From positions 1-62,762 of the forward strand of contig NZ_JALZWP010000017.1 in NCBI RefSeq assembly GCF_023336755.1: a DNA stretch of 62,762 nucleotides, given 5' to 3'. Positions 26,533 to 45,673 of this stretch are shown piece after piece. Positions within the stretch are counted from its first letter, which is position 1. Each line of letters begins with the position of its first letter. Under the pieces are notes generated by a model. The model was not told the origin of the DNA, did not search any database, and saw only the letters and a program-made list of their open reading frames with translations. The stretch comes from Roseinatronobacter domitianus. GTDB lineage: Bacteria; Pseudomonadota; Alphaproteobacteria; Rhodobacterales; Rhodobacteraceae. Made by a program: the position numbers and the translations under genes.

Positions 26533-26539
26533 TCGAATA

Positions 26540-27889: not shown

Positions 27890-27894
27890 ACCCC

Positions 27895-28578
27895 TTAGTA
27901 GGCCGCAGCATTATCGATGTCGAAATTGTAGAGCTTGCGAGCAGAGCCGTAACGCCGGAACTCTTCTGGCTGGGCATCAACCCCCGCGCGCGCCAAAAGA
28001 TCGCGCAGAATCTCCAGATGTTCGGAACGCATCTCTTTCTCTATGCAGTCTGCGCCAAGGCTTTTGACGGACCCGCGCACGAACAACCGCGCCTCATACA
28101 GCGAATCACCCAACGCGTCGCCTGCATCGCCACAGACAACCAGATTGCCCGCCTGCCCCATAAACGCCGACATATGCCCGATATTGCCCTGCACCACGAT
28201 GTCGATCCCCTTCATCGAAATGCCGCAGCGGCTGGACGCATTGCCCTTGATAACCAACAAACCGCCGCGCCCCGTGGCCCCTGCGTATTGGCTGGCATCA
28301 CCGTCGATGACGACAGTGCCAGACATCATGTTTTCGGCAACGCCCGGCCCGGCGGAGCCGGTGACGTGTATATTCGCCTGCTTGTTCATGCCGCCGCAAT
28401 AATAGCCGGTGGACCCGCGCACGGTGACGTCAATCGGCGCATCCAGACCCACGGCAATGGCGTGCGCCCCGCGTGGGTTCAGAACTTCCCATTCTGTGGC
28501 GTTGGTCTGCGCCGCTTGTGATTGCAGCGTTGCATTCAACTCGCGCAGGGGCTGGGTGGCAAGGTCTATGGTCTGCAT
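27895..28578 (-). CDS. mgsB: N-methylglutamate synthase subunit MgsB (GXGXG domain)
   Basis: A 227-residue protein made of the right-handed beta-helix that forms the C-terminal GXGXG domain of glutamate synthase. Repeats of G-x-x-G-x-x-G type are visible (GDASQYAGATGRGGLLVIKGNAS, MKGIDIVVQGNIGHMS, GQAGNLVVCGDAGDALGDSLYEA). It is a structural subunit between the amidotransferase (mgsA, 3 bases upstream) and the FMN subunit (mgsC, 5 bases downstream). Confidence 0.87.
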   Translation of the reverse strand: MQTIDLATQPLRELNATLQSQAAQTNATEWEVLNPRGAHAIAVGLDAPIDVTVRGSTGYYCGGMNKQANIHVTGSAGPGVAENMMSGTVVIDGDASQYAGATGRGGLLVIKGNASSRCGISMKGIDIVVQGNIGHMSAFMGQAGNLVVCGDAGDALGDSLYEARLFVRGSVKSLGADCIEKEMRSEHLEILRDLLARAGVDAQPEEFRRYGSARKLYNFDIDNAAAY

Positions 28579-28581
28579 GGC

Positions 28582-29478
28582 TCAGTGGCTCCAGAAATAA
28601 ACGGTTGCGGGTTCGGGTTCCCAGACGCGGGCAGAATCGATCCCCGGCAGGTTAACCAGCGCGCGGTATTCGGACCCAAAGGCAACATATTGGTCGGTTT
28701 CGGCCATAACCGCAGGCTTGCAAGCAATCGGGTCACGCACCACGCCAAACCCGTCCTTGGTGCCAACAACGAAGGTAAAGAACCCGTCCAGGTCGTCGAT
28801 GGAGGATTCGAGCGCCTCGCCAAGCGTGGCCCCTTCACGCATTCGCCAGCTTAGGTAAGCGGCTCCGACTTCGGTGTCGTTTTCGCTTTCGATCCGCATC
28901 CCCGCCGCGCGCAGCTTGCGGCGCAGGCTGTTATGGTTGGACAACGACCCGTTATGCACAAGGCACTGGTCGGCCCCGGTGGAAAACGGGTGCGCCCCTT
29001 GCGTTGTCACCGCCGATTCGGTCGCCATTCGGGTATGGCCAATGCCGTGGCTTCCTGACATGGCCGACAGGCTGAACCGCGCGGCCACGTCCTTGGGTAG
29101 CCCAACTTCCTTGAAGATCTCGATCCGCTCGCCGTCACTCATGACGCGCAATCCGGGGCGCAATTCGGCAAGCGCGGCCCGCGCCGATTCTGCTTTGTCT
29201 GCGGGCAGGTCGATCACCGCATGGGTGTCGACGGCCCGCACAGAGGCCGAAGTGCCAAGCACCGCCGACAAATCCTCTGCCAAGGTTGCAAAATCATTGT
29301 CGGGCTGCGCGGATTGCACCGTCATCTTGGCGCGTCCGCCCTGCCCGGCGCCGTAAATTGCGATACCGGCACTGTCGGGACCACGGTCCGTCATGGTGAT
29401 AAGCATATCGGTCAGCATCGCCCCCAACTGGGGTTCGAGCGATTTGTCTTTCAGGAATAATCCGACAATCCCGCACAT
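28582..29478 (-). CDS. mgsA: N-methylglutamate synthase subunit MgsA (class II glutamine amidotransferase)
   Basis: A 298-residue Ntn-type glutamine amidotransferase. The catalytic Cys follows the initiator Met (MCGIVGLFLKDKSLEPQ), and TDRGPDSAGIAIY, GIGHTRMATESAV, AHPFSTGADQCLVHNGSLSN and ENDTEVGAAYL are the usual glutaminase motifs. It is the first gene of the mgsABC-gmaS-purU operon and starts at the left edge of a 405-base divergent region facing dmmD. Confidence 0.9.
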   Translation of the reverse strand: MCGIVGLFLKDKSLEPQLGAMLTDMLITMTDRGPDSAGIAIYGAGQGGRAKMTVQSAQPDNDFATLAEDLSAVLGTSASVRAVDTHAVIDLPADKAESARAALAELRPGLRVMSDGERIEIFKEVGLPKDVAARFSLSAMSGSHGIGHTRMATESAVTTQGAHPFSTGADQCLVHNGSLSNHNSLRRKLRAAGMRIESENDTEVGAAYLSWRMREGATLGEALESSIDDLDGFFTFVVGTKDGFGVVRDPIACKPAVMAETDQYVAFGSEYRALVNLPGIDSARVWEPEPATVYFWSH

Positions 29479-29883: not shown

Positions 29884-31020
29884 ATGACGCAATCCTGGCG
29901 CTTTTCAGCATTGGCCGACCGGCACCGCGCGATGGGGTCGGGGCTGGAGGACTGGTCCGGCATGGGCACGGCGTGGAGCTATGACAAGGATCAGGAAGAG
30001 GAATATCTTGCGATCCGCACCAAGGCGGGGTTCATGGATGTGTCCGGTCTGAAGAAAGTGCATGTGGTGGGGCCGCATGCGTTTCATGTGATCGACCGCG
30101 CGACCACGCGCAACGCCGACAAGATCAAGCCGGGGCGCAGTTCCTACGCGACCATGCTGAACGACGACGGCAAGTTCATCGACGATTGCGTGATCTACCG
30201 CACCGGGCCGAACGCCTATATGGTTGTGCATGGCGCGGGTCAGGGGCATGAGCAACTGACCATGGCGGCGATGGGGCGGGACGTGGATATCCGCTTCGAC
30301 GACAACCTGCATGACATCTCATTGCAAGGTCCGCTGGCGGTGGATTTCCTGGAACAGCAGGGCGTGCCGGGCATTCGTGACCTGGCCTATTTCTCGCATA
30401 TCCAGACCATGCTGTGGGACAAGCCGGTGATGATCTCTCGCACCGGCTACACGGGCGAGCGCGGATATGAGATTTTCTGCCGCGCGCAAGATGCCGTGTC
30501 AATCTGGGATGCGCTTGTCGAACAGGGCGCGCCGATGGGGATTATCCCGACCCGCTTTACCACGCTCGACTGGCTGCGCGCCGAAAGCTACCTGCTGTTC
30601 TATCCGTATGACAATTCTGAACAATATCCGTTCGAGGATGAGAAAGCCGGCGACACGCTGTGGGAGCTGGGGCTGGATTTCACCGTGTCCAAGGGCAAAA
30701 CGGGGTTCCGCGGGGCCGAGGAACATTACCGGCTGAAGGGCAAGGAACGCTTCAAGATTTACGGCGTGAAGCTGGAAGGCACCACGCCCGCCGAAGAAGG
30801 TGCCGCGCTGATGAAAGACGGCCAACAGGTCGGTGTGGTCACGATCGGCATGTATTCCTCGCTGAACACGCATAATGTGGGGATTGCCCGGATGCCGGTG
30901 GACTGCGCCATCGATGGCACGGCGATGAGTGTCAAAAACGCCGATGCCGAAATTCCCTGCGTGGCCCATTCCATGCCCTTCTACGACCCGGACAAAAAGC
31001 GCCGCACCGCCAAGGGCTAA
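29884..31020 (+). CDS. dmmD: dimethylamine monooxygenase-associated GcvT-like protein DmmD
   Basis: A 378-residue folate-binding aminomethyltransferase-fold protein (GcvT family). Marks include YLAIRTKAGFMDVSGLKKVHV, ISRTGYTGERGYEIFC, FTTLDWLRAESYLLFY and the late VGVVTIGMYSSLNTHNVGIARM. In Ruegeria pomeroyi dmmDABC is the cluster needed for dimethylamine oxidation, with DmmD the GcvT-like member that is thought to take the formaldehyde unit onto tetrahydrofolate. Gene order here (D, A, B, C) matches. A GGGAGAGAG ribosome site precedes the ATG. Confidence 0.88.
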   Translation: MTQSWRFSALADRHRAMGSGLEDWSGMGTAWSYDKDQEEEYLAIRTKAGFMDVSGLKKVHVVGPHAFHVIDRATTRNADKIKPGRSSYATMLNDDGKFIDDCVIYRTGPNAYMVVHGAGQGHEQLTMAAMGRDVDIRFDDNLHDISLQGPLAVDFLEQQGVPGIRDLAYFSHIQTMLWDKPVMISRTGYTGERGYEIFCRAQDAVSIWDALVEQGAPMGIIPTRFTTLDWLRAESYLLFYPYDNSEQYPFEDEKAGDTLWELGLDFTVSKGKTGFRGAEEHYRLKGKERFKIYGVKLEGTTPAEEGAALMKDGQQVGVVTIGMYSSLNTHNVGIARMPVDCAIDGTAMSVKNADAEIPCVAHSMPFYDPDKKRRTAKG

Positions 31021-31029
31021 GACCGGAAC

Positions 31030-31053
31030 CGGGCATGCGGCTGCGCATGCCCG
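31030..31053 (+). promoter_or_regulatory. intercistronic hairpin between dmmD and dmmA
   Basis: CGGGCATGCG and CGCATGCCCG form a perfect 10-bp stem with a 4-base loop (GCTG), 10 bases after the dmmD stop. No T-tract follows; AAAGGAG and dmmA come next. It may set the ratio of DmmD to the monooxygenase subunits. Confidence 0.6.
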
Positions 31054-31078
31054 CCCAGCTAAAGGAGTCGCCTTCAGG

Positions 31079-31687
31079 ATGAGCCGTTTCCACTTTCCCC
31101 CATCTATACACAGCCGCCCCGTTTACGGCACACTCGCCCCCCGCGCCGGTGCCGCCCAGATCATGCTTGCCGATGCCGAAGGGGCCGAGGCGATTTTATC
31201 TGTGGCACAGGCTGACCCAGAGCTGATGCGCCGGGCGCATGTCATCTATATTCCGAAGGGCACGGGTGACAGATTCACCGACCCGCTTCGCGCCGCCGCC
31301 CCCGATATTCTGCATATCGCGCCCAGCTACGGCGCCTGCACGCAGCGCCTGCACCGTGTGTTCAGCGCCGCCCCGATGGGCGCGCAGATCTATCTGGCCG
31401 GAACCGAAGGGCTGATCGGGCAGGCCATGGCGCTGGCCTTGCAGATCGGTATTCCGAAATCCGCCATCCAGACCGAACATCGCGGGTCCGTCGCGCGACG
31501 GGTGCAATGCGTGCATTGCAAGGGCATCACCGAGGACGTGATGACCGACCCGTTCCAATGCGGCCATTGCGGGCTGAACCTGTTTGTGCGCGACCACTAC
31601 TCGCGCAGGTTGGCCGCGTTTCAGGGTGTCTGCATAGATGCCGAAGACCCCGGCAATGTGCCTGCCCCGGTGGAGTTGTATTCATGA
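31079..31687 (+). CDS. dmmA: dimethylamine monooxygenase subunit DmmA
   Basis: A 202-residue protein of the DmmA family. The N-terminal two thirds have a Rossmann-like pattern (VIYIPKGTGD, IYLAGTEGLIGQAMALALQIG), and the C-terminus carries four Cys in VQCVHCKGITED and FQCGHCGLNLFVRDHYSRR, which look like a rubredoxin- or zinc-ribbon-like metal site. The ATG at 31079 follows AAAGGAG (11-base gap). Its stop overlaps the dmmB start (ATGA). The exact role of this subunit in electron transfer or assembly is not evident from sequence. Confidence 0.85.
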   Translation: MSRFHFPPSIHSRPVYGTLAPRAGAAQIMLADAEGAEAILSVAQADPELMRRAHVIYIPKGTGDRFTDPLRAAAPDILHIAPSYGACTQRLHRVFSAAPMGAQIYLAGTEGLIGQAMALALQIGIPKSAIQTEHRGSVARRVQCVHCKGITEDVMTDPFQCGHCGLNLFVRDHYSRRLAAFQGVCIDAEDPGNVPAPVELYS

Positions 31688-32646
31688 GCGCCGGTCCGGG
31701 AAAGCTGCCCGTTATCGTCACCGCCAAGGTCAAGCTGAACGATCTGGTCACGCGGTTTGAATTCGCCCATGCCGACGGCAAGCCGCTGCCGCCGTTTTCT
31801 GGCGGCGCGCATACGGTGGTTGAAATGCGCGATGGCGATGTGACCCGGCTGAACCCCTATTCGCTGATGTCCGACCCGGTGGACCCCACGCATTACGCCA
31901 TTTCCGTGCGGCGCGACGCTGCCGGGCGCGGCGGGTCGATGTTCTTGCATGACAAGGTGCAGGTGGGTGACAGGCTGGTGCTGGGCACCCCGGTCAACCT
32001 GTTCGCGCTGGACCTGACCGCGCGCAAGCATCTGATGATCGCGGGCGGTATCGGGGTCACGCCGTTTGTGGCGCAGATCAAGCAATTGCAGACCACGGGC
32101 GGCGCGTTCGAATTGCATTATTCGGCCCGGTCGCAGGCTTTGGCCAGCTATGCCGACGACTTGCGCGCGGCGCATCCCAAACGGGTGAAGCTGTATCTGG
32201 ACGACCAGAGCCAGCAAATCCCGCTGGAACGCCTGCTGTCGGGCCAGCCACCCGGAACCCATGTCTATGTCTGCGGGCCGCGCGGGATGATCGACTGGGT
32301 TCTGGCCACCGCCGAACGCCTTGGCTGGCCGCCCGAGGCCGTGCATTCCGAAGAATTCCTCGCCCCGCAATCGGGCAAGCCGTTCGATGTGGAATTGGCA
32401 CAATCGGGCAAGACCATTACCGTGGGCGAACATGAAAGCCTGTTGGAAGCCATGGAGCGCGAGGGCGTTGATGCCCCCTATCTGTGCCGTGGCGGGGCCT
32501 GCGGGCAATGCGAAACCGGCGTGATCGCGCATGACGGCACGTTCCAGCATCACGATCATTGGTTGGAAGATGACGAGCGCGACGGCAGCAAGATCATGCC
32601 CTGTGTCAGCCGGTTCGAAGGAACCCGGTTGGTGCTGGACAGGTAA
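31684..32646 (+). CDS. dmmB: dimethylamine monooxygenase reductase subunit DmmB (VanB/PDR type)
   Basis: A 320-residue phthalate-dioxygenase-reductase-type protein: an FMN domain (LNPYSLMSDP), an NAD domain (IAGGIGVTPFVAQIKQL, VYVCGPRGMIDWV) and a C-terminal plant-type 2Fe-2S ferredoxin with Cys ligands in YLCRGGACGQCETG and IMPCVS. It moves electrons from NAD(P)H to the oxygenase. It overlaps dmmA by 4 bases and lies 13 bases before dmmC, so the three subunits are likely made together. Confidence 0.9.
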   Translation: MSAGPGKLPVIVTAKVKLNDLVTRFEFAHADGKPLPPFSGGAHTVVEMRDGDVTRLNPYSLMSDPVDPTHYAISVRRDAAGRGGSMFLHDKVQVGDRLVLGTPVNLFALDLTARKHLMIAGGIGVTPFVAQIKQLQTTGGAFELHYSARSQALASYADDLRAAHPKRVKLYLDDQSQQIPLERLLSGQPPGTHVYVCGPRGMIDWVLATAERLGWPPEAVHSEEFLAPQSGKPFDVELAQSGKTITVGEHESLLEAMEREGVDAPYLCRGGACGQCETGVIAHDGTFQHHDHWLEDDERDGSKIMPCVSRFEGTRLVLDR

Positions 32647-32659
32647 AGGAGACGGGACC

Positions 32660-33727
32660 ATGACGATCCAGTTCAATGACGAAACTTTCCGCGACGATTA
32701 CACCTTCCGCAACTCGGAATGGGCGATCAAACGCTTTCCCTTCCCCTTCCACGAAGACAGCTACATGTATTCGGTCAACATGGAACGCCACCGGGGCGGG
32801 CCGGACGGGTCCGTCTATGCCAAGCGCTTCGATGTGGACGAACATTATATCGCGGAAATGCGCGACCGCGCGCTGGTCTTGGCGGATGACCCGCTGCGCT
32901 GCCAGTCCTTGCCGCATATGACGCTGGCGGGGTGGGACTTGCTGGAACTTATCATGGTCAGCAAATCCGAGGATTACCCCGATCTGTTCGAATTGCACCG
33001 CGACGGCACCACATGGCGCTGGGTCAACAAGCCCTTGGGCATTGACGACACCTTCACCTTCATGGACGAGGCCAGCCTGCCCTATGGCCCGATGGAATAC
33101 ATCACCCGCCAGACCCAAGGCGATTTCGCGGTGCTGGACCAGCGCGAGAATAACCTGTGGATGGATGCGGGTATGGTCACAACCCAGGCCGATTGGTCGC
33201 TGGATTTCGACATCGGGATGAACTTTTTCGAATGGCACGCGCCGGTGCCGCTGGCGCATGAAATGGGCGTGTTCAAACGCGCGCTGAAATTCCTGCTGAA
33301 CGTGCAGCAAGACAGCCCGGCGCGGCGCTTGAACTGGACCATGACCGTCAACCCGCTGCTGGATACCAGCCCGGAAAACTACCATAAATGGGGCATCCAA
33401 AAGACCACGCTCACGCCAGAAAACGTCGGCCGCAAGCAACATCTGCGCGTCGAATTGCAGACCTTCTACCGCCTGCCGCGATCAAACGCGCTTGTCTTCC
33501 CGATCCGCTGCTACCTGATCGCGCTGGAAGACCTTGTGACCGTGCCGAAATGGGGCCGCCGCCTGCACCGGGTGATCCGCGATCTGCCGGCTGAACTTGC
33601 CACCTACAAAGGCTTCATCGACAACCGCCCGATCATCCTGGACTACCTGTCGCGCTTCGATGACGGCCTGCCCACATCACCCGGAATATGGCCCGACATC
33701 CACAGCGAACCCCCACTGCAAACCTGA
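32660..33727 (+). CDS. dmmC: dimethylamine monooxygenase catalytic subunit DmmC (DUF3445, heme-dependent N-demethylase type)
   Basis: A 355-residue DUF3445 protein, the family of heme-dependent oxidative N-demethylases. Marks are WAIKRFPFPFHEDSYMYSVN, LAGWDLLELIMVSKSEDYPDLFEL, WSLDFDIGMNFFEWHAPVP and VELQTFYRLPRSNALVFPIRCYLI, with several conserved His and Arg that could bind heme or substrate. It would demethylate dimethylamine to methylamine and formaldehyde with electrons from DmmB. An AAAGGAG site precedes the ATG at 32660. It ends 2 bases from the stop of the convergent XRE gene. Confidence 0.87.
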   Translation: MTIQFNDETFRDDYTFRNSEWAIKRFPFPFHEDSYMYSVNMERHRGGPDGSVYAKRFDVDEHYIAEMRDRALVLADDPLRCQSLPHMTLAGWDLLELIMVSKSEDYPDLFELHRDGTTWRWVNKPLGIDDTFTFMDEASLPYGPMEYITRQTQGDFAVLDQRENNLWMDAGMVTTQADWSLDFDIGMNFFEWHAPVPLAHEMGVFKRALKFLLNVQQDSPARRLNWTMTVNPLLDTSPENYHKWGIQKTTLTPENVGRKQHLRVELQTFYRLPRSNALVFPIRCYLIALEDLVTVPKWGRRLHRVIRDLPAELATYKGFIDNRPIILDYLSRFDDGLPTSPGIWPDIHSEPPLQT

Positions 33728-33729
33728 TG

Positions 33730-34392
33730 TCACACGTTCTGCGGATACGCGATGATCGACAAATATCGCGCAGGGAGCTTTTCCAGAACTTCTGGCCCGT
33801 GCGGCGCATCCGCATCGAAAAACAAAGTGTCGCCGGGTTTAAGGGCATACAGCGTGTCATTGTGGCGATACTGCAATGCGCCTTCCAGCATGTAGATCGT
33901 CTCTATCCCGCCGTGCTGAAAGGTCGGGAATATATCGGACTCCAGCGTCAGCGTAATCAGGTAGGGTTCCACCATGACCCCGCTGGCATTGGACCCGATA
34001 TGCCCAAGCAAGTTGTATTGATGCCCGGCGCGGGTGCCCGCGCGTTCGGTTTCAACCCCTGCGCCTGCCGGGGTGTGAACCGCCTCTCGATGCTCTTCGA
34101 ACCCACGGAAAAACGCGGTCAGAGGCACGCTCAGCGCATGCGACAAAGCCTGAAGCGTGGTCAGCGAGGGCGAGGTGTTACCATTCTCGATCTTGGACAG
34201 CATGCCAATGGACAACCCGGTCAATTCCGCCAAGTCCGCCACCGTGATACCCTTTTGACGACGAAAAGCGCGCACTTCGCGCCCGATCGCCACTTCCAGC
34301 ACCTTTTCGCGCTCCTCGCGCGTGCTGTGGGGGTCTTGGCGCAACGGAGCAGCGCGCCCGGCAAGCTCGGATGGTTTCACGGTGGTTGTCAT
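33730..34392 (-). CDS. XRE-family regulator with C-terminal cupin
   Basis: A 220-residue regulator. The helix-turn-helix (VRAFRRQKGITVADLAELTG, LSIGMLSKIENGNTSPSLTT) spans about residues 38-95 and a cupin domain (IYMLEGALQYRHNDTLYALKPGDTLFF) follows. Such proteins often control uptake or breakdown of amines, amino acids or polyamines. It lies in the gap between dmmC and the GlxA-type regulator, divergent from the latter, and is probably a regulator of the amine island; the ligand is unknown. Confidence 0.87.
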   Translation of the reverse strand: MTTTVKPSELAGRAAPLRQDPHSTREEREKVLEVAIGREVRAFRRQKGITVADLAELTGLSIGMLSKIENGNTSPSLTTLQALSHALSVPLTAFFRGFEEHREAVHTPAGAGVETERAGTRAGHQYNLLGHIGSNASGVMVEPYLITLTLESDIFPTFQHGGIETIYMLEGALQYRHNDTLYALKPGDTLFFDADAPHGPEVLEKLPARYLSIIAYPQNV

Positions 34393-34457: not shown

Positions 34458-35486
34458 ATGTTTAACCGCAGTATACAGAATATGACTGAAAATGAAAATA
34501 TCCAGCTCGGTTTCCTGATTTTCCCGGGCTTTCCGATGGCTTGCCTGACCTCGATGATCGAACCGTTGCGCGCGGCGAATGAAATCGCAGGGACGCGCGC
34601 CTTCGCATGGAGCCTTATTTCAGAGGATGGCGCACCGGTGGAAAGCAGCGCAGCGGTGGCCTTTCACCCGAATTGTGCGCTCGCCGGGGCAGGGCATCTG
34701 GATTACCTGTTTCTGCTATCCCCGCCCAATGGCCATTTCGCGGAACCGCGCAAGGGCTATGGCGCATTGCGCAACCGCGCCCGCCACGGTGCGACGCTGG
34801 GGGGCGTTAGCGGCGGGGTGTTTCCATTGGCGCGTGCGGGCCTTCTGGATGGGCATGTAACCTCTGTTCATTGGTGCTACGCAACCGCCTTCAGCGACGA
34901 ATTCCCCGAGCATCGCACCACGGATGATGTCATCATGGTAGACCGCCGTCGTGTCACGATATCTGGCGCGGCTGCCGGGTTCGACCTTGCCTTGCGTCTT
35001 ATCAAGAACCGCTTCGGCGATGCGGTGACGACCGAAGTGGCCTGCTGGTTCCAACACCCCTTCGTGCGCGGCGACGGTGTGCGGCAGCGCATCCCCGCGC
35101 TGCGCTCTACCGCGGCATCTGACATGTTGCCCGAGCCGGTTGCCGAGGCGCTCCGCATTATGGATGACCACCTTGAAGACCCGATCGCCGTGGGTGATAT
35201 CTGCGAGCAGATCGGGATTTCACCACGCCATCTGGAACGGTTGTTCAAGATGCAACTGGGCAAAAGCCCCAAGCTTTACTACCGCGCGAAACGGCTGGAT
35301 GCCGCGCGGCAACTGGTGATGTATTCCAATCGCCCACTGCGCGAGATTGCTCTGTCCTCTGGCTTTTCCAGTCCCGCCGCACTGCGCCGTCGCTATGCCG
35401 AAGCCTATGGCCTCACCCCCGAAGATGATCGGGACCGCATAAACATGTTCCGCGTGCAGCAAAACGCGCCAGTACCGTCCAGTTGA
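34458..35486 (+). CDS. GlxA-type regulator (DJ-1/PfpI-like domain plus AraC DNA-binding domain)
   Basis: A 342-residue protein with an N-terminal class I amidotransferase-like sensor (LGFLIFPGFPMACLTSMIEP, DYLFLLSPPNG) and a C-terminal AraC DNA-binding domain (VGDICEQIGISPRHLERLFK, LREIALSSGFSSPAALRRRY). The usual nucleophile position in the elbow reads VSGGVFPLA, without Cys, so the sensor is not catalytic, as is normal for GlxA/CdhR-type activators of amine and betaine genes. The ATG at 34458 follows AAGGAG at 34444. It stands between the dmm genes and the Amt gene and is the best candidate activator of the island. Confidence 0.87.
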   Translation: MFNRSIQNMTENENIQLGFLIFPGFPMACLTSMIEPLRAANEIAGTRAFAWSLISEDGAPVESSAAVAFHPNCALAGAGHLDYLFLLSPPNGHFAEPRKGYGALRNRARHGATLGGVSGGVFPLARAGLLDGHVTSVHWCYATAFSDEFPEHRTTDDVIMVDRRRVTISGAAAGFDLALRLIKNRFGDAVTTEVACWFQHPFVRGDGVRQRIPALRSTAASDMLPEPVAEALRIMDDHLEDPIAVGDICEQIGISPRHLERLFKMQLGKSPKLYYRAKRLDAARQLVMYSNRPLREIALSSGFSSPAALRRRYAEAYGLTPEDDRDRINMFRVQQNAPVPSS

Positions 35487-35813: not shown

Positions 35814-37175
35814 ATGTCACTAAATCTGGAAACCGTCTTTGCCGAGCAGGTCACACTGAACTCGCTTGTGCAAAATCTTGTTTACGCATCCGGCACAGTC
35901 GGGGCGATCATGGTTGTCGTCGGCCTGCTGATGATCGACGCAGGCACGACCCGCAGCAACAACCTGCTAAATTCGACCCTTGAAAAGCTGATGGGCTTCT
36001 TCATCGGGTTTGCAACCTATTTCATCATAGGGTTCGGCTTCTGGGCCGCGCAATACTACATCATGGAAGGCGCGACGCTAACCGATTCCATCAAGGATTG
36101 GTGGCTGGCGGGCGGCATGTCGAACGCTCGTGCGCATGAGGTCGATCCTGGGGTGTTTCCGGGGCTGAACACGTTCCAGATCTTCATCTTCTTCCTTGCG
36201 TGCTTTGCTGGCATCATCAACGTGCTGTTCCATTTCGCGGTCGCAGAGCGGATGAAGGCAGCGGCCTATTTCATCTTTTGCGCGGTCGCGACGGTGGTAT
36301 CCTCGGCGCTAAGCTGGGCAACATGGGGGTCTGTCGGCCCGCTGACCAATCCCGGCTTTCACGACTTCTTCGGCGTGGGCTTTGTCTATCTGTTCCCGGC
36401 TGGCATGGCGCTTGTCATGGTGCCGAAACTGGGCGCACGCCCCGGCATGTTCGGGCCGCACGCCAAGGTTGCCAGCTATGACGCGCCCAGCATCGGGCTT
36501 GCGGCAACCGGGCTTATGACGATCTTCGCGGCGTTGCCGATGGTCATCTTGTCCTGCCTGTTCTTCTTCGACCCCGAAGCACTTGCCGTCAGCGTGACCA
36601 TGGCGAACACCAGCGTTGGCATTGCCTTCAACAATTACGGGTTGGCTTGGGCTGGCGGCGCAATTTCGGGCCTTCTGATCGCTTACAAAACCCGCAGCTA
36701 CGCCTACACGCTTCTTGGCCCACTTGCGGGTTATGTCGCCGGAGCCTCGGGCTTTGACGTGTATTTGCCTTGGCAAATGTTCCTCGTGGCCCTTGGCGCG
36801 CCTTTCGTCGCCTATGCGGTCTACGAATTCACGCTTAAGCGCGGCATTGATGAACACAAGCTGTTCCCGCTGTTCTTGGGCGCGGGCAGCTATGGGCTTA
36901 TCATGCTGGGCATCTTCAAGGCCGGAACCCCGCGCGGCGGCTACCTTGGATTCGAGGACGGCGCCTATGCGTTCCAGCACGGCGAAATCGGCATAGTCAT
37001 GCAGCTTGCCGGCATTGCGGCCTGCGTCGGCGCAGGTGTCGTCACCGCTCTGGTGCTGGGTTTCATTCTGGAGAAGACCATCGGTCTTAAGGTGGATGAG
37101 AACGATCAGGCCGATGGTCTGGACCAGAAAGTCTGGGACATCGCGCCAGCACCGGCCGCAACCCCTGCGGAATAA
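35814..37175 (+). CDS. divergent Amt-family (methyl)ammonium transporter-like protein
   Basis: A 453-residue membrane protein with eleven or so hydrophobic segments and recognisable Amt/Rh architecture (AVAERM, matching the ALAERI motif of AmtB, about residue 145; a C-terminal GLKVDENDQADGLD like the AmtB tail). Where AmtB has DFAGGTVVH (pore His168) this protein reads DFFGVGFVY, and where AmtB has GVHGVCGI (His318) it reads LFLGAGSY. Both pore histidines are therefore missing. Context between amine regulators suggests methylammonium or another amine as ligand, or a sensing role. The GGAG-preceded ATG at 35814 is chosen over a much longer open frame. Confidence 0.8.
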   Translation: MSLNLETVFAEQVTLNSLVQNLVYASGTVGAIMVVVGLLMIDAGTTRSNNLLNSTLEKLMGFFIGFATYFIIGFGFWAAQYYIMEGATLTDSIKDWWLAGGMSNARAHEVDPGVFPGLNTFQIFIFFLACFAGIINVLFHFAVAERMKAAAYFIFCAVATVVSSALSWATWGSVGPLTNPGFHDFFGVGFVYLFPAGMALVMVPKLGARPGMFGPHAKVASYDAPSIGLAATGLMTIFAALPMVILSCLFFFDPEALAVSVTMANTSVGIAFNNYGLAWAGGAISGLLIAYKTRSYAYTLLGPLAGYVAGASGFDVYLPWQMFLVALGAPFVAYAVYEFTLKRGIDEHKLFPLFLGAGSYGLIMLGIFKAGTPRGGYLGFEDGAYAFQHGEIGIVMQLAGIAACVGAGVVTALVLGFILEKTIGLKVDENDQADGLDQKVWDIAPAPAATPAE

Positions 37176-37309: not shown

Positions 37310-38041
37310 ATGGGACTTGTAATGAATTCACGGCTGGAAGCAGGGCTTGTGCTGGATCAAGCCGTGGGCGGCACCGTGCAAGTCGTAATCGACACGCTGT
37401 TTGCGAAAATCCAGTCAGAGGAATACCCGGCAGATTCGCGCCTTCCCAGCGAGCGCGCCTTGGCCGCGGAACTGGGCGTATCTCGGAACACGGTGCGCGA
37501 GGCGCTTGATGTGCTGGCCACGCATAACATTATCCGGCGACGCGCAGGCAGCGGCAGTTTCGTGACCTATCGCGCACGCACGGTTGAGCATATGAGCAGT
37601 GGCTCTATCGCCGAGCGCACAAGCCCACTCGATCATCTGGTGGTTCGCAGCATCATCGAACCCGAAATGGTGCGGCTGGCCACCATCAATATGAGCCCGC
37701 GCGAGCTGGATGAACTTGATGACATCGTGTCGCGCATTGAACGCGTGCGCAGCGATGTGACGGAATTCATCAAATGCGAAGAAGAACTATACCGCAAGAT
37801 CGCGCAAGGCACCCGCAACCCCCTGCTTGAAGCCTGCTACGAGATGACAATCGAAGTGTGTCGCCAAAGTTTTCGGACCGCGCTGATGCGCCGCCACCTG
37901 ACGCCCGACCGCATTCAAAGCTACCAGACCCGCTATAATACGTTGTTCAATGCAATTGCCGCCCGCGACGTGGAAGCGGCGGTGGAATTCGTCAAACTGC
38001 ATCTGGTGGATGAGCAAAAACTGCTGTTGCACGAAGGCTAA
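37310..38041 (+). CDS. FadR-type GntR regulator (FCD domain)
   Basis: A 243-residue regulator with an N-terminal winged helix (LPSERALAAELGVSRNTVREAL, RAGSGSFV) and an all-helical FCD ligand domain (IIEPEMVRLATINM, DELDDIVSRIERV, HLVDEQKLLLHEG). FCD domains usually bind small carboxylates through a metal. It follows the Amt gene after a stem-loop and converges on the orphan binding-protein gene. A nearby ATG at 37322 is an alternative start. Its target is unknown but probably lies in this amine island. Confidence 0.87.
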   Translation: MGLVMNSRLEAGLVLDQAVGGTVQVVIDTLFAKIQSEEYPADSRLPSERALAAELGVSRNTVREALDVLATHNIIRRRAGSGSFVTYRARTVEHMSSGSIAERTSPLDHLVVRSIIEPEMVRLATINMSPRELDELDDIVSRIERVRSDVTEFIKCEEELYRKIAQGTRNPLLEACYEMTIEVCRQSFRTALMRRHLTPDRIQSYQTRYNTLFNAIAARDVEAAVEFVKLHLVDEQKLLLHEG

Positions 38042-38049
38042 CGCAAGGT

Positions 38050-39357
38050 TCAGTCCGCCCCGCCCGGCACACGCGGATGCAGGCTTTGCGGCACGGTCGG
38101 CGCAGCCAGTTTTTGGTGCCACAACTGACCAAGCTGGCGCATTTCAGCCTCTAGCAACGCTTCGTGTTGGTCCAGCCAGCCGCGCACCGATCCGAATTCG
38201 ACGATGCGCGCCTTGCCTTTGTCGATCCGCACCACGGGCCAGTCGCCAACAAGCGCATGGCTGATTCCGAAAATCTCTTCTCCCCACCATTCGGCAGGGC
38301 CAAAGGCATGGTTGACCTGTCCCATTTGCTTCATGGCCGCCAGAACCGCCGATGCGTTCAGCGCGCCGACTTTCTCGACCGCCGCGTGCCAGATGTCGAG
38401 GATGGCGACATATTCCCAGCTGACCGCGCTCCAGCTATCGGGGAACCGGTCCTGATATTCGGCATAAAAACTATGCGGCTGGTTGAAGAAAAACGCCTTC
38501 TCTGCCAAAGCCGGATCGTCGAAATCAGGAAACTGGAAGATCGCGCCTTCCATGAACTCGACCGATGTGCGCGCAACCAATCTCTCATATTGGTCCAGCG
38601 TGCAGGACAGAATCTTGCCTCGAAACCCCTTCGCATGGGCATATTCGGTCATGGCATGAACCATAGGTGTGTAGCTGGTGCACCAGCATAGCAAGTCAGG
38701 GTCTTCTTCCAGCATGGGCTGGACGATGGCGGCCACATCCGTATCCTCTGGGGCGTATTGCACATCCTTGCAAATTGCATGGCCGGACGCGGCAAAAGCC
38801 GCGCGATACGTGGCGAGTGACGGCAGCCCGAATCCATCCCTTTGGCTGCAAAGCGCAACCCGCCGGACCTGCGGGCAGTTCCGCCCGATCCAGTCCACCC
38901 CAGTCACGTTGTAAACCGGATGCACCTCTGACGGCGCAATCAGATAGCGCATATCTGGCGACAGGTCGCTCGGCAGCAAGGTCGAGGCAAGAACGCGGCT
39001 GTCATTCAGCAGATCACGCAGATGCGCGACATAATCTCCGCCCAGCAGCATCAGCAACGAGACCTGATCTTGCCAGATCAATTCGCGCGCCAGAACAAGC
39101 GCCTGATCCGGATCATCGCCACAATCCCGCGCGATGATTCGCACAGGGTAGCGCCGTCCCTGGATCAGCAAGCCCCCCGCACGGTTGAGCCAATCCTCCC
39201 AGATCTGGCACCCCTGATAACCCGGCAAGCCCCAAGATTGCACAGACCCGCTTAGCGGCACCAACATGCCGATCTTGACCTCTTGCGTCATGCCCACGCC
39301 AAAGCTGGGCAGCAAACTGCGCATAGCCATGCGGTGAGCAAAACTGGTGTCGATCAT
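38050..39357 (-). CDS. signal-less periplasmic-binding-fold protein (Leu/Ile/Val- or AmiC-type)
   Basis: A 435-residue protein of the branched-chain amino acid/amide binding family (type I fold). Marks are KIGMLVPLSGSVQSWGLPGYQG, GGLLIQGRRYPVRIIARDCGDDPDQALVLARELI and LLMLLGGDYVAHLRDLLND. The N-terminus (MIDTSFAHRMAMRSLLPSFG, or MTQEVKIGML from 39291) has no signal peptide, and no permease or ATPase gene is beside it. AmiC of Pseudomonas is a cytoplasmic protein of this fold that senses amides and controls an antiterminator. A sensing role here is a guess. It diverges from tmm over 169 bases. Confidence 0.75.
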   Translation of the reverse strand: MIDTSFAHRMAMRSLLPSFGVGMTQEVKIGMLVPLSGSVQSWGLPGYQGCQIWEDWLNRAGGLLIQGRRYPVRIIARDCGDDPDQALVLARELIWQDQVSLLMLLGGDYVAHLRDLLNDSRVLASTLLPSDLSPDMRYLIAPSEVHPVYNVTGVDWIGRNCPQVRRVALCSQRDGFGLPSLATYRAAFAASGHAICKDVQYAPEDTDVAAIVQPMLEEDPDLLCWCTSYTPMVHAMTEYAHAKGFRGKILSCTLDQYERLVARTSVEFMEGAIFQFPDFDDPALAEKAFFFNQPHSFYAEYQDRFPDSWSAVSWEYVAILDIWHAAVEKVGALNASAVLAAMKQMGQVNHAFGPAEWWGEEIFGISHALVGDWPVVRIDKGKARIVEFGSVRGWLDQHEALLEAEMRQLGQLWHQKLAAPTVPQSLHPRVPGGAD

Positions 39358-39467
39358 GGCCAAAGATTAGCAGGTCCACCGCCCTGCGCGATGGGAAAAA
39401 CGCCCTGCCCAAGAAAACATTTATTACTGTGGTGAAATTTATTGACAGATTGGATTGAAGTGGCGCA

Positions 39468-39526: not shown

Positions 39527-40897
39527 ATGACCCAGAAGAAAGTCGCAATCATTGGCGCCGGCCCCTCTGGTCTGGCCCAGCTGCGCGCCTTCCAATCCGC
39601 TGCAGCCCAGGGCGACGCAATCCCCGAAATCGTCTGCTTTGAAAAGCAGGACAACTGGGGCGGACTCTGGAATTACACATGGCGCACGGGTCTGGATGAA
39701 AACGGCGAACCGGTTCATTGCTCTATGTATCGTTACCTGTGGTCCAACGGCCCCAAGGAGGGGCTGGAATTCGCCGATTATTCTTTCGAGGAGCATTTCG
39801 GCAAGCAGATCGCTTCCTATCCGCCCCGCGCCGTGCTGTTCGACTATATCGAGGGCCGCGTGCAAAAGGCAGGCGTGCGCGACATGATCCGCTTCAGCAC
39901 CGTGGTGCGCTGGATCAACTATGATCCAGATACGGAAAAATTCACCGTCACCGTGCATGACCACGCGCAAGACCATGTCTATTCCGAAGAATTCGACAAT
40001 GTGATCGTGGCCTCGGGGCATTTCTCTGTCCCGAATGTGCCGCATTATCCGGGTTTCGAATCCTTCAATGGCCGCCTTCTGCACGCGCATGATTTTCGCG
40101 ATGCGCGCGAATTCAGCGGCAAGGATATTCTGGTTATGGGGTCATCCTATTCCGCCGAGGATATCGGCTCACAATGCTGGAAATACGGCGCGAAATCGGT
40201 CACGTCCTGCTACAGGTCTGGCCCAATGGGGTTCGACTGGCCTGACAATTGGGAAGAAAAGCCCGCGCTGGAACGCTTGGAGGATAACACCGCCTATTTC
40301 AAGGACGGCACATCCAAACATGTCGATGCGATCATCCTGTGCACAGGTTACAAGCACAGCTTCAACTTCCTGCCCGATGACCTGCGCCTGAAAACCGCGA
40401 ACCGCTTGGCCTCCGCCGATCTGTATAAGGGCGTGGTCTGGGTGCATAATCCCAAGCTGTTCTATCTTGGCATGCAGGACCAGTGGTTCACCTTCAACAT
40501 GTTTGATGCGCAAGCCTGGTGGGTGCGCGACGCAATCATGGGGAAGCTGGATATTCCGTCCGACCTAGAAACAATGCTGGCCGATGTCGCTGAACGCGAG
40601 GCGCGAGAAGAAGCCAGCGACGACACCAAATACGCCATCAAGTATCAGGGCGATTATGTGAAGGAACTGATCGCCGAAACCGACTACCCATCCTTCGACG
40701 TAGACGGCGCCTGCGAGGCTTTCTACCAGTGGAAAAAGCACAAGTCGCAAAACATCATGGCGTTCCGCGACAACAGTTACCGGTCGGTCATCACAGGCAC
40801 CATGGCACCGGTCCATCATACACCCTGGAAAGATGCGCTGGATGACAGCATGGCAAGTTACTTGCAGAACGAGGCAGAGACCACGCCCGCCGAATAA
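39527..40897 (+). CDS. tmm: trimethylamine monooxygenase Tmm
   Basis: A 456-residue flavin-containing monooxygenase that oxidises trimethylamine to trimethylamine N-oxide with NADPH and oxygen. It has the FAD loop [17 protein letters not shown], the FMO-type [23 protein letters not shown] site, the HDFRDAREF segment close to the FMO signature FxGxxxHxxxY/F region, and [13 protein letters not shown]. Length and the [20 protein letters not shown] stretch match bacterial Tmm. The ATG at 39527 has GGAG at 39515. A strong stem-loop follows, so it is probably monocistronic. Confidence 0.93.
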
Positions 40898-41107: not shown

Positions 41108-42358
41108 ATGCGCTATTCCGGCTTTCGCGTTCTGCAACAGGCCATGACAGGCCACAAAGGCTGGCAGCCTGCTTGGCGCGACCCCGACCCTAAACCGCAT
41201 TACGACATTGTCATCATCGGCGGTGGCGGGCACGGGCTGGCCACCGCCTATTACCTTGCGCGCCAATTCGGGCAGGCGAATATCGCGGTGCTGGAAAAGG
41301 GCTGGATCGGTGGCGGCAATGTGGGCCGCAACACCACCATCATCCGCTCCAACTACATGCTGGACGGCAATGAGCCCTTCTACGAATTCTCGCTCAAGCT
41401 GTGGGAAGGGTTGGAGCAGGATTTCAACTATAATGCGATGGTCAGCCAGCGTGGTATCCTGAACCTTATCCACTCCGACGCGCAGCGCGATGCTTTCACC
41501 CGGCGCGGCAATGCCATGATCCTGAATGGCGCGGATGCCGAATTGCTGACCGCCGAACAGGTGCGCCGCGAATACCCATTCCTGAATTTCAACAATGCGC
41601 GCTTTCCCATCAAAGGCGGACTGGCGCAGCGCCGCGGCGGCACCGTCCGCCATGATGCGGTTGCCTGGGGCTATGCGCGCGGGGCTGACAGGCGCGGGGT
41701 CGACATTATCCAACATTGCGAAGTCACGGGCTTTCGCATCGAAAACGGCATCTGCCGCGGCGTCGAGACCTCGCGCGGCTTCATCGGCGCGGGTAAGGTT
41801 GGCGTGGCAGTTGCGGGCAATTCCGGGCGCATGATGGCCAAGGCGGGTATGCGCCTGCCCATCGAATCCCATGTTCTGCAAGCCTTTGTCAGCGAAGGGC
41901 TGAAACCGGTCCTGCCCGGCGTTATCACCTTCGGCGCGGGGCATTTCTATTGCAGCCAATCCGACAAGGGCGGGCTGGTCTTCGGCGGCGATATCGACGG
42001 CTACAATTCCTACGCCCAGCGCGGCAACTTGCCTGTGGTCGAGGACGTGGCCGAAGGCGGCATGGCGCTTTTTCCCGGTCTTGGCCGCGTGCGCCTGCTG
42101 CGCATGTGGGGCGGCATCATGGATATGAGCATGGACGGCTCTCCCATCATAGACCGCACGCATATCGACGGGCTCTATTTCAACGGTGGCTGGTGCTATG
42201 GCGGGTTCAAAGCCACGCCTGCCTCTGGCTGGTGTTTCGCACATCTGCTGGCCACCGATACCCCGCACCCGACCGCCACCGCTTACCGCTTCGACCGGTT
42301 CGAGCGCGGGCGGATGATCGACGAAAAAGGCATGGGTGCGCAGCCCAACCTGCATTGA
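41108..42358 (+). CDS. mgdA: N-methylglutamate dehydrogenase subunit MgdA (SoxB-like FAD subunit)
   Basis: A 416-residue DAO-family flavoprotein equal to the beta subunit of heterotetrameric sarcosine oxidase. The FAD loop is IIGGGGHGLATAYYLARQ, with RSNYMLDGNEPFYEFSLKLWEGL and FGAGHFYCSQSDKGGLVFGGDIDGY typical of SoxB. MgdABCD oxidises N-methylglutamate to glutamate and passes C1 to folate; sarcosine oxidase (SoxBDAG) has the same subunits and order. The presence of gmaS and mgsABC in the same window favours Mgd, though sarcosine as a substrate is possible. GGAG at 41097 precedes the ATG. Confidence 0.82.
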   Translation: MRYSGFRVLQQAMTGHKGWQPAWRDPDPKPHYDIVIIGGGGHGLATAYYLARQFGQANIAVLEKGWIGGGNVGRNTTIIRSNYMLDGNEPFYEFSLKLWEGLEQDFNYNAMVSQRGILNLIHSDAQRDAFTRRGNAMILNGADAELLTAEQVRREYPFLNFNNARFPIKGGLAQRRGGTVRHDAVAWGYARGADRRGVDIIQHCEVTGFRIENGICRGVETSRGFIGAGKVGVAVAGNSGRMMAKAGMRLPIESHVLQAFVSEGLKPVLPGVITFGAGHFYCSQSDKGGLVFGGDIDGYNSYAQRGNLPVVEDVAEGGMALFPGLGRVRLLRMWGGIMDMSMDGSPIIDRTHIDGLYFNGGWCYGGFKATPASGWCFAHLLATDTPHPTATAYRFDRFERGRMIDEKGMGAQPNLH

Positions 42359-42443
42359 AAGCCCGACCAATGCCAACTTCATCTTGCCATAAATACTCAA
42401 AATCCGGCAATCGCCGCGTGGCGCAACGTTCGGGAGAACGCGC

Positions 42444-42731
42444 ATGATTATCCACCACCCCTTCCTCGGCCCCTGCGACGCACAGGAATTCACCTATCTG
42501 GGTGATGCGTCTCTGATCGACCGGCCCGATGGCGTGACTGAAGGCGCAGAGGCGGCGTTCTATAACTACCAGTATCTGCGTGACAACCCGGCGGGGCTGC
42601 ACCGCGAATTGTGGTTCCACGAACAAGGGGATCGGTCCTGGCTGGTCGTCACCCGCGACACGGTCACGCATGAAATTACATCGGTCGAACTGGCGCGCGA
42701 TGTCGCGCGGGCGAAAGGGCGCAGCGCATGA
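42444..42731 (+). CDS. mgdB: N-methylglutamate dehydrogenase subunit MgdB (SoxD-like)
   Basis: A 95-residue small subunit of the sarcosine-oxidase delta family, with HHPFLGPCDAQEFTYLGDA near the start and HRELWFHEQGDRSWLVVTRDTVTHEI near the end. In the enzyme this subunit carries a zinc site, but here only one of the usual Cys (GPCDAQEF) is present. Its stop overlaps the start of mgdC by 4 bases. It is 85 bases after mgdA. Confidence 0.84.
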   Translation: MIIHHPFLGPCDAQEFTYLGDASLIDRPDGVTEGAEAAFYNYQYLRDNPAGLHRELWFHEQGDRSWLVVTRDTVTHEITSVELARDVARAKGRSA

Positions 42732-45673
42732 GACTTCCCTCCGGCGGACAGATCGACCGCAGCAAGACCCTGCGTTTCACCTTCGACGGTGCGCATTATC
42801 GCGGCCATCCGGGCGACACGCTTGCGTCAGCACTTCTGGCCAATGGCGTGCGGCTGATGGGGCGGTCCTTCAAGTATCACCGCCCGCGCGGGCCTATCGC
42901 AGCAGGCAGCGAGGAACCCAACGCGCTTGTCACGCTTGGGCGTGGCGGGCGACAGGACCCCAACACCCGCGCCACGGTCGCGGAACTGTTTGACGGGCTG
43001 GAGGCGCGCTCACAAAACGCATGGCCCAGCCTGCGCTTTGATGCGATGGCCATCAATGACGGCCTGTCGCCTTTCCTGACAGCCGGGTTTTATTACAAGA
43101 CCTTCATGTGGCCCGCTGCCTTTTGGGAAAAGCTCTATGAGCCGGTGATCCGCCGTGCCGCAGGTCTGGGAGCCATCAGCACAGACCCCGATCCGGACAG
43201 CTACGACAAGGGTTTCCTGCATTGCGATCTGCTGGTCATCGGCGCAGGGCCGTCCGGCCTGATGGCTGCGCTGACAGCAGCGCGCGGGGGCGCAAGGGTG
43301 ATCCTCGCGGATGAAGATTTTACGCCCGGCGGACGGCTGAACGCTTCGGCGGAACACATTGACGGACAACACGCAACCGAATGGGCGGCAGAGGTGCTGG
43401 CCGAACTGTCAACCCTCCCCAATGTTCGCATATTGCCCCGCACCACCGTGTTCGGCGCGTTCGACCATGGCATCTATGGCGCTGTCGAACGGGTCTCGGA
43501 CCACCTGCCCCAACCGGAGCCGGGCAAGCCGCGTCAAACCCTGTGGCGCATCTATTCCAAACGCGCGGTGCTTTGTGCGGGTGCCTTGGAACGCCCGATA
43601 GCCTTTGCCGACAATGACCGCCCCGGCATCATGCTGGCGGGCGCGCTGGCCGCCTATGCCCATCGCTGGGCGGTCAGCCCCGCAAGCCGCGTGGCAATCT
43701 TTACCAACAATGACAGCGGCCACACCACCGCGCGCGACCTGCTCGCGCTGGGTGTCGATGTGCGCGCCGTCATCGACACCCGCGCCGATGCCCCCAAGCT
43801 GGACGGAGCCGAGGTTATCGCGGGCGGCCAGATCACTGGCACGCGCGGGCGGCTGGGCCTGAGCGCCGTGCAGATCACCCGCACAGACGGGCGCAGGTAT
43901 TGGCTGGAGGTGGGCGCGCTCGGCGTCTCTGGTGGGTGGAACCCCAATGTCGCGCTGTCGTGCCATCAGCGCGGGCGGCCCGTCTGGCAAGACGATATTG
44001 CTGGCTTCGTGCCGGGCGGCAATCCGCCCGTCGGCATGACCGTTGCCGGTGCGGCGGCGGGGCAGTTCGGCACACATGCCGCGCTCTCAAATGGCGCCGC
44101 GCAAGCCCTTGCCGCGCTCGGTGATCTGGGCATCCCAGCGCCTAAACCCGACCTGCCAAAAGCCGAGGATGCCCCCTACCGCATCACCCCTTTCTGGCAT
44201 GTCGGCAGCACCAAGCGGGCTTGGCTGGATTTCCAGAATGATGTGACGGTCAAGGACGTGAAGCTGGCGCATCAGGAAGGGTTCCGCTCGGTCGAGCATC
44301 TGAAACGCTACACCACACTGGGCATGGCGACGGATCAGGGCAAGACCTCTAACCTTGGTGGTCTGGCTGTCATGGCCGAACTGACCGGCCAAAGCATAGA
44401 GGCCACCGGCACCACCATCTTTCGCCCGCCCTATACACCGGTGGCGATGGGAGCATTGGCGGGGCGATCCACCGGCGCGGATTTCAAACCAACCCGCAAG
44501 ACCCCCAGCCATGTCTGGGCGTCGGAACAAGGCGCGACTTTTGTCGAGGTTGGCCAATGGCTGCGCGCGCAATATTTCCCGCAATCCGGGGAAACCCATT
44601 GGCGGCAAACCGTGGATCGAGAGGTCAACGCCACCCGCACCGGCGTTGGTATTTGCGACGTGACGACGCTTGGCAAAATCGACGTGCAGGGCGCGGATGC
44701 TGCGGCTTTCCTGAACCGCATATATTGCAACGCCTTTGCGAAGCTGGCTGTGGGCCGCGTGCGCTACGGGCTAATGCTGCGCGAGGACGGGATCGCCATG
44801 GATGATGGCACCGCCGCGCGTCTGGCTGAAGATCATTTCGTCGTCACAACCACCACCGCCAATGCCGTGCCGGTCTACCGCCACATGGAATTCGCGCGCC
44901 AGTGCCTGTGGCCGGATATGGATGTGCAGCTTATCTCGACGACCGAGGCTTGGGCACAGGTTGCCATCGCCGGGCCAAAATCGCGCGAGCTGCTAGAGCG
45001 TATTGTTGATCCCGCGCATGACCTGTCAAATGACGCCTTCCCCTTCATGGGCTGTGCAGACATCACCGTGTGTGGCGGGCTGCGGGCACGGTTGTTCCGC
45101 ATCTCTTTCTCGGGCGAGTTGGCGTATGAGCTGGCCGTGCCCACCCGCTACGGCGACGCGCTGATGCGCCGCCTGATGGACAAGGGTGCCGATCTGGGCG
45201 TCACGCCTTATGGCACTGAAGCCCTTGGCGTCATGCGCATTGAGAAGGGGCATGCTGCGGGCAACGAGTTGAATGGCACCACCACCGCGCGCAATCTTGG
45301 GCTTGGCCGCATGGTCAGCACCAAGAAAGACAGCATCGGCGCGGTGCTGTCCCGCCGCGAGGGGCTGACCCAAGAGGACGGGCTGGAACTTGTCGGCCTG
45401 CGCGCGGTGAACCCGCAAAGCCAGATCCCGGCGGGCGCGCATATTCTGGAACCCGGCGCAGAAACCATTGCGGCCAACGATCTGGGCTATGCGACATCGG
45501 CTTGCTATTCGCCCACACTGGGCAGCTACATCGCCCTGGCCTTCGTCAAGGCCGGCAGCACGCGGATGGGTGCGCGCTTACGTGCCGCATCACCCCTGAC
45601 CGGGGTGGATGTGCCTGTCGAAATCGTGTCGCCGCATTTTGTGGACCCGGAAGGAGAACGTCTCCGTGCATGA
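42728..45673 (+). CDS. mgdC: N-methylglutamate dehydrogenase subunit MgdC (SoxA-like, with GcvT domain)
   Basis: A 981-residue large subunit. In order it shows a 2Fe-2S-like N-terminal module without cluster Cys (LRFTFDGAHYRGHPGDTLAS, FKYHRPRG), a nucleotide-binding domain ([21 protein letters not shown]), a central SoxA domain, and a folate-binding GcvT-like C-terminal third from about residue 600 (GVGICDVTTLGKIDVQGADA, ISFSGELAYELAVP, GTEALGVMRIEKGHAAG). It would channel the released methylene group to tetrahydrofolate. The same caveat between Mgd and sarcosine oxidase applies as for its partner subunits. Confidence 0.85.
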   Translation: MRLPSGGQIDRSKTLRFTFDGAHYRGHPGDTLASALLANGVRLMGRSFKYHRPRGPIAAGSEEPNALVTLGRGGRQDPNTRATVAELFDGLEARSQNAWPSLRFDAMAINDGLSPFLTAGFYYKTFMWPAAFWEKLYEPVIRRAAGLGAISTDPDPDSYDKGFLHCDLLVIGAGPSGLMAALTAARGGARVILADEDFTPGGRLNASAEHIDGQHATEWAAEVLAELSTLPNVRILPRTTVFGAFDHGIYGAVERVSDHLPQPEPGKPRQTLWRIYSKRAVLCAGALERPIAFADNDRPGIMLAGALAAYAHRWAVSPASRVAIFTNNDSGHTTARDLLALGVDVRAVIDTRADAPKLDGAEVIAGGQITGTRGRLGLSAVQITRTDGRRYWLEVGALGVSGGWNPNVALSCHQRGRPVWQDDIAGFVPGGNPPVGMTVAGAAAGQFGTHAALSNGAAQALAALGDLGIPAPKPDLPKAEDAPYRITPFWHVGSTKRAWLDFQNDVTVKDVKLAHQEGFRSVEHLKRYTTLGMATDQGKTSNLGGLAVMAELTGQSIEATGTTIFRPPYTPVAMGALAGRSTGADFKPTRKTPSHVWASEQGATFVEVGQWLRAQYFPQSGETHWRQTVDREVNATRTGVGICDVTTLGKIDVQGADAAAFLNRIYCNAFAKLAVGRVRYGLMLREDGIAMDDGTAARLAEDHFVVTTTTANAVPVYRHMEFARQCLWPDMDVQLISTTEAWAQVAIAGPKSRELLERIVDPAHDLSNDAFPFMGCADITVCGGLRARLFRISFSGELAYELAVPTRYGDALMRRLMDKGADLGVTPYGTEALGVMRIEKGHAAGNELNGTTTARNLGLGRMVSTKKDSIGAVLSRREGLTQEDGLELVGLRAVNPQSQIPAGAHILEPGAETIAANDLGYATSACYSPTLGSYIALAFVKAGSTRMGARLRAASPLTGVDVPVEIVSPHFVDPEGERLRA

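Follow-up and report, generated by a model that had tools for sequence, protein, structure and literature searches.

Background

Ammonium transporters of the Amt family share a pair of pore histidines, H168 and H318 in Escherichia coli AmtB, and this twin-His pair has been described in a review as a characteristic, highly conserved motif of the family (PMC10433425). AmtB without the twin-His pair becomes channel-like (PMC10433425). Double twin-His variants of Mep2 pass both NH4+ and K+, and twin-His variants of AmtB still discriminate NH4+ from MeA (PMC9040831). Since such variants still tell the two apart, a larger substrate is not accounted for by loss of the histidines alone. For AmtB H168F and H318F, structures are available (PMC3647058). 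The sensor protein Ks-Amt5, which carries a fused kinase and keeps the twin-His pair, binds NH4+ without moving it, and MMA or DMA gives background only (PMC5764959).

Genes labelled amt are also part of bacterial gene clusters for methylated amines. In Roseobacter, 'amt, unspecified ammonium transporter' is listed with tmm, tmoR and a periplasmic binding protein (PBP) gene (PMC4744692), 'amtB, ammonia transporter' appears in a Figure 1 legend (PMC5520151), and amt recurs in TMA, DMA and MMA clusters (PMC7574528). In the accessible text of these three papers, the product is labelled as an ammonium, ammonia or unspecified ammonium transporter and its pore residues pass without comment. In the literature text covered, and these amt genes aside, the transporters named for the TMA/DMA pathway serve TMAO (TmoXWV and TmoP). 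Among the titles and abstract openings covered, a scope outside which most subscription papers fall, no report of an Amt protein without twin His in such clusters was found. That these clusters contain amt has thus been published before, and as far as this literature reaches, the loss of the histidines has not.

An Amt-fold protein encoded by Roseinatronobacter domitianus

The window analysed here is a stretch of 62,762 nucleotides (contig NZ_JALZWP010000017.1), and the gene under study lies at 35814..37175 on its forward strand. The reading frame starts with ATG at 35814, just downstream of GGAG, stays open over its full length to a stop codon at 37175 and encodes 453 residues, so that the coordinates given in the initial annotation are correct. 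The recognition of an Amt fold also holds. The product has a single Pfam match, to PF00909, at 104.7 bits (cut-off 23.2), its predicted monomer model contains 11 long helices, and it shares with AmtB the AER segment and the C-terminal GLD. The F107, W148 and D160 equivalents are kept as in canonical Amt proteins. Unlike these, the window protein has Tyr and Phe at the twin-His positions, Val at the F215 position and Leu at the W212 position, and its loop 6-7 (residues 250-267, 36561..36614, forward strand; periplasmic by homology, with topology inferred from AmtB) is longer than that of AmtB. It stays far below the cut-offs of the ammonium transporter model TIGR00836 (109.7 vs 343.3 bits) and of the marine Amt subtype model TIGR03644 (74.6 vs 514 bits). 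A phmmer search of the PDB with the single sequence gives no match at E up to 10, and a profile is needed to reach the structures.

Structural comparison with the PDB gives the highest Z scores for the Sd-Amt1 entries (8qj3, 8qj4 and 8qpf), followed by Ks-Amt5 (6eu6), at 42.4-44.1, and AmtB scores 42.2. Two of the Sd-Amt1 entries are deposited as receptor. This ranking favours the idea of a non-conducting sensor or transceptor, in which a methylated amine would be bound at the outer site, the pore would be plugged by Tyr, Phe and Leu, and signalling would run through a partner, for instance a PII protein or a regulator. AmtB, however, lies within 2 units of the top score. Furthermore, the window protein has no fused output domain within its 453 residues and one Pfam match, whereas Ks-Amt5 carries a kinase and itself keeps the twin His. 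On all the evidence, including that given below on conservation and gene order, we regard a sensor as unlikely, although it is the strongest competitor of the import reading proposed below.

Replacement of the twin-His pair

Both pore histidines are replaced. MAFFT alignment with E. coli K-12 AmtB places Y192 (codon 36387..36389, forward strand) on H168 and F354 (codon 36873..36875, forward strand) on H318, and profile-profile alignment by hhalign against 11 other Amt proteins gives the same pairs. When the HMMER profile of the subfamily is aligned with PDB Amts, Y192 faces the first His in all five printed alignments. F354 faces position 318 in four of the five, one of these four being a variant that itself has Phe there. 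The top-scoring alignment, with 2b2f, is displaced by one residue at the second site, where Leu355 lies opposite the His. The subfamily has a one-residue gap right before this site. With the closest histidines at positions 348 and 389 (H348 and H389), none of the possible registers brings a His to the second site. A plain Amt protein with a misread alignment is thereby ruled out by the three methods, the one-residue shift in 2b2f being noted. The loss of both pore histidines, which the initial annotation had read from two segments, is thus borne out, and the comparison with AmtB at positions 168 and 318 places no His in the pore. Among animal Rh proteins, the Rh30 proteins RhD and RhCE also lack the twin His.

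The Tyr/Phe pair is fixed among the relatives examined. It is found in 83 of 83 rows scoring over 560 bits, a set that includes two rows without the N-terminus and several near-identical copies, and it persists in 64/64 rows below 95% identity and 45/45 below 90%. The 83-row count does not include six loci that are broken or cut. Where these are covered, L102, L103 and L107 have both Tyr and Phe, L106 has the Tyr, and L108 and L110 have the Phe. All three copies found on plasmids carry the pair as well. By contrast, all 25 other Amts compared keep H/H, including the sole other Amt of the window genome, in which PF00909 matches two genes in total.

Other pore positions differ in how they have fared. 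W171, D184 and F131, the equivalents of W148, D160 and F107, are kept in 83/83 rows. The F215 position, V244 in the window protein, is Val in 81 rows and Ile in 2, so the Phe gate F107/F215 is present by half, with F131 kept. The W212 position is Leu in 81 rows and Ile in 2, and at the S263 position 77 rows have Leu and 6 have Phe. At the S219 position, the subfamily has Cys, as do 23 of the 25 other Amts. Judged by alignment, the outer site is largely preserved, in contrast to a rebuilt gate and inner pore.

The subfamily and its conservation

Close relatives are present in 11 of 292 genomes of the order, at 70-100% identity and more than 700 bits, and the next matches in that search fall to 66 bits and 31% identity. 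A species-wide scan gives 79 loci at 63-96% identity, hosted by Rhodobacterales, Aminobacter, Methylophaga, Methylophilaceae, other Gammaproteobacteria and Actinomycetota MAGs. A search for intermediates in 398 Pseudomonadota genomes (E up to 1e-20) returned the gene itself and one partial match of 80.9 bits. In a tree of 69 rows with AmtB as the root, all 43 rows of the subfamily cluster together with support of 100/100. The window protein thus stands outside the ordinary Amt transporters tested, the placement that the initial annotation had left to a tree. The stem of the subfamily amounts to 10 changes per site and the tree program gives a long-branch warning, so that its deep position and sister group are not readable from this tree. 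One contig labelled Enemella evansiae (L097, Actinomycetota) carries a Roseobacter-like island (amt 75%, dmmC 87%), which is possibly assembly contamination.

Selection on the gene is purifying, with dN/dS of 0.026 to 0.224 against six relatives (dS exceeds 1 for five of the six). A degenerate copy that has lost its function might be suspected because two characteristic residues are gone and the relatives at L102, L103 and L107 are each split over two reading frames, by frameshift or assembly error. The same two replacements in 83/83 rows, dN/dS of 0.03-0.22 and the full-length open frame make decay scarcely credible, and for the family it is contradicted by this conservation.

Conservation was also compared by region. 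The measure was mean majority identity in 64 rows, and AmtB supplied the topology. Periplasmic loops average 0.85, helices 0.80 and cytoplasmic parts 0.71 (0.79 without the C-terminal tail). Loops 4-5 (0.96) and 6-7 (0.95), both periplasmic, flank the outer site. The outer side is uneven, loop 2-3 reaching no more than 0.72. On the cytoplasmic side, the short loops 3-4 and 9-10 are at 0.92 and 0.89, and the C-terminal tail, at 0.62, belongs to the most variable regions. This pattern leans towards recognition of something outside and does not settle a direction. The two very conserved loops would suit a sensor as well, but the poorly conserved tail speaks against one.

The methylated-amine island

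As the initial annotation had stated, the gene lies in an island of methylated-amine genes. Around it are gmaS/mgs, dmmDABC, tmm and mgd. On the reverse strand, purU, gmaS, mgsC, mgsB and mgsA occupy 24214..29478, the mgs names being given by homology and order. gmaS scores 653 bits on the type III glutamine synthetase model (cut-off 469.6). Forward-strand dmmDABC (29884..33727) comprises a GcvT-type dmmD, dmmA (115 bits, cut-off 60), the reductase gene dmmB and a HODM-type dmmC. It is followed by an XRE-cupin regulator gene (domain match; 33730..34392, reverse strand) and by a forward-strand gene for a GbdR-like AraC regulator (218 bits, cut-off 480; 34464..35486, start approximate), which is TmaR-like by position only. 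Downstream of amt, a GntR/FCD regulator gene (domain match; 37310..38041, forward strand), TmoR-like by position only, begins 134 bases away. A PBP gene (Peripla_BP_6 domain match; 38050..39363, reverse strand) lies between it and the trimethylamine monooxygenase gene tmm (39527..40897, forward strand; 837.6 bits, cut-off 675), and no permease gene adjoins this PBP gene in the window. The mgd genes follow at 41108..46220 on the forward strand, with mgdA and mgdD named by position and a soxA-type mgdC at 42728-45673 (forward strand; 1355 bits, cut-off 1164).

In their placement, the AraC and GntR regulators correspond to TmaR and TmoR of Ruegeria pomeroyi (PMC13390433), and the R. pomeroyi locus L047 has the order amt-GntR-PBP-tmm. 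Because the legend in PMC4744692 has amt, tmoR, PBP and tmm, the published 'amt' of Roseobacter TMA clusters probably includes the subfamily gene. The nearby regulator gene would fit a sensor, but a GntR-type neighbour is found at only 29 of the 79 loci. The PBP neighbour is present at 28/79. A binding site for the AraC regulator was considered and rejected. A perfect CAAAAGG direct repeat with 20-base spacing (35619-35645), ending 168 bases before the amt start, had looked common to the amt upstream region and the dmm promoter. The perfect repeat is missing upstream of 34/34 relatives examined, L082 and L084 having a weaker match in which the spacing differs. The loose pattern, taken by itself, is at chance level in the window (6 matches vs 4.9 expected).

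Across the 79 loci, scanned with neighbour thresholds of our own choosing and with Tdm and TMADH queries included, at least one methylated-amine gene is on the retrieved stretch at 48, with tmm at 35, and none is at 31. Of the 11 genomes of the order with the gene, 7 carry it no more than 12 kb from tmm or dmmA, and in the other four (G285, G181, G037 and G092) it is far from both. A search of 72,556 plasmid records found three copies, annotated 'ammonium transporter', and tmm at 80-83% identity is on the retrieved stretch of all three. On Paracoccus plasmids, a group II truncated haemoglobin gene adjoins the subfamily gene (L115) or lies one gene off (L117). Tdm is close by at two Actinomycetota loci (L096 and L105), and L075 has a TMAO permease and a TMADH-like flavoprotein, a likeness that is our reading of an old-yellow-enzyme match. 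Eleven Leisingera loci (L039, L040, L042-L045, L048, L058 and L060-L062) have no methylated-amine gene on the retrieved stretch, and transposase genes lie near the subfamily gene in L040. In the Leisingera genomes tested (L039, L040 and L042), tmm, dmmA, Tdm and GmaS are found elsewhere in the genome.

Co-occurrence with methylated-amine enzymes

Among the 292 genomes of the order, 58 have DmmA, 57 have Tmm over cut-off and 94 have GmaS, and each of these enzymes is found in 11/11 genomes with the subfamily gene. By enzyme class, the gene is present in 11 of 49 genomes with all three enzymes, in 0/30 with GmaS alone, in 0/9 with GmaS and DmmA and in 0/6 with GmaS and Tmm. Since 38 of the 49 full-route genomes are without the gene, it is not required. 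Fisher values of 8e-9 and 7e-9 for the 79-locus neighbour scan and of 0.0004 for the class counts ignore shared ancestry and overstate the association. A whole-genome set built from the 79 loci covers 26 of them, 17 of these without a methylated-amine neighbour. DmmA is over cut-off in 12, Tdm in 13, GmaS in 22 and Tmm in 13 of the 26, and 25 have at least one of the four. The exception is a Thiotrichaceae MAG (L087). In four MAGs (L074, L094, L098 and L099), GmaS is the single enzyme of the four, an indication of MMA there. L074 nonetheless has a TMADH-like gene and a TMAO permease nearby. On these counts, neither MMA alone nor DMA/TMA alone holds up as a clean rule beyond the order.

Co-occurrence, a matter of gene content, favours a methylated-amine role. 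The initial annotation had offered a changed substrate, a different mechanism or a sensor. The link to methylated amines is what these data strengthen, and none of the three options is singled out by them.

The same counts bear on two further explanations. An importer of ammonium or monomethylamine only, which would serve the usual substrates by means of compensating pore residues, is compatible with GmaS being the commonest of the four enzymes (22/26 genomes). Two precedents may point the same way: a gmas-mgsABC-amt operon of Pseudomonas C5pp read as a methylamine transporter (PMC8292978), and urea/ammonium transporter homologues of Methyloversatilis that respond to methylamine (PMC5023235). 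However, the gene is missing from all 30 sampled genomes of the order with GmaS alone, and the protein falls far under the ammonium transporter model (109.7 vs 343.3 bits), which makes this reading quite improbable. It is very doubtful, too, that the protein is an efflux or leak channel for ammonium released on demethylation of methylated amines. The channel-like behaviour of AmtB without twin His (PMC10433425) and the passage of NH4+ and K+ by Mep2 double variants (PMC9040831) would allow such a channel, and methylamine-degrading Rhodobacteraceae feed ammonium to diatoms (PMC7574528). But those AmtB and Mep2 variants carry Ala or acidic residues rather than Tyr and Phe, a K+ leak would presumably be costly, and the gene is found in 0/30 GmaS-only genomes, where ammonium release is expected too.

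A second Amt lineage linked to methylated amines

Outside the subfamily, the top-scoring Amts of the order (L014-L032) retain H/H, and 16 of these 19 lie 1.8-4.0 kb from dmmA (15 at 1.8-1.9 kb). Like the window protein, they are tied to methylated-amine genes and have a loop 6-7 longer than that of AmtB. Unlike it, they keep both histidines and both gate Phe residues, share 23-26% identity with it and fall outside its group in the tree. The window genome has no member of this lineage. Both kinds are found on one stretch at L009, L053, L067 and L076. In Ponticoccus alexandrii, the second Amt keeps H/H and is encoded next to the dmm genes. Because the two kinds are found on the same stretch or in the same genome, they are probably not redundant, which would argue against a plain ammonium role of the window protein.

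Proposed function and mechanism

Taken together, the protein would belong to a separate Amt-fold subfamily dedicated to methylated-amine use, most likely as a putative importer, above all of DMA+ and TMA+ and possibly of MMA+, that works without the twin-His relay; we consider this proposal about evenly balanced between right and wrong. In such an importer, the cation would be caught at the outer site by Trp171 and Phe131 beneath the two very conserved loops. It would then pass a Phe gate reduced to a single Phe and cross the membrane without the twin-His proton relay. The drive would come from the membrane potential and from trapping through Tmm, Dmm or GmaS.

The precedents of AmtB, Mep2 and Ks-Amt5 make both a conductor of intact cations and a sensor conceivable. 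Import is the better bet because of the catabolic context, the lack of an output domain and the poorly conserved tail. Against import, Tyr, Phe and Leu could plug the pore, which keeps the plugged sensor alive as an option. AmtB variants H168F and H318F are said to conduct poorly. The import and DMA/TMA readings are slightly weakened because conservation of the outer face is uneven and the 2b2f alignment is shifted.

Conclusions

A more far-reaching reading, which we put forward tentatively and hold to be possible but doubtful, is that this is the first Amt-fold protein with a methylated amine beyond methylammonium as its natural substrate, taking up DMA+ and TMA+ as intact cations through an aromatic, His-free pore and providing the missing entry step of the bacterial TMA/DMA pathway. 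A natural group with fixed Tyr and Phe offers a direct test of what the twin-His pair is for and of how the fold controls substrate size. The subfamily also provides a concrete candidate for DMA and TMA uptake in marine, soda-lake and soil bacteria that use these compounds, and the window protein may be the missing uptake route for methylated amines.
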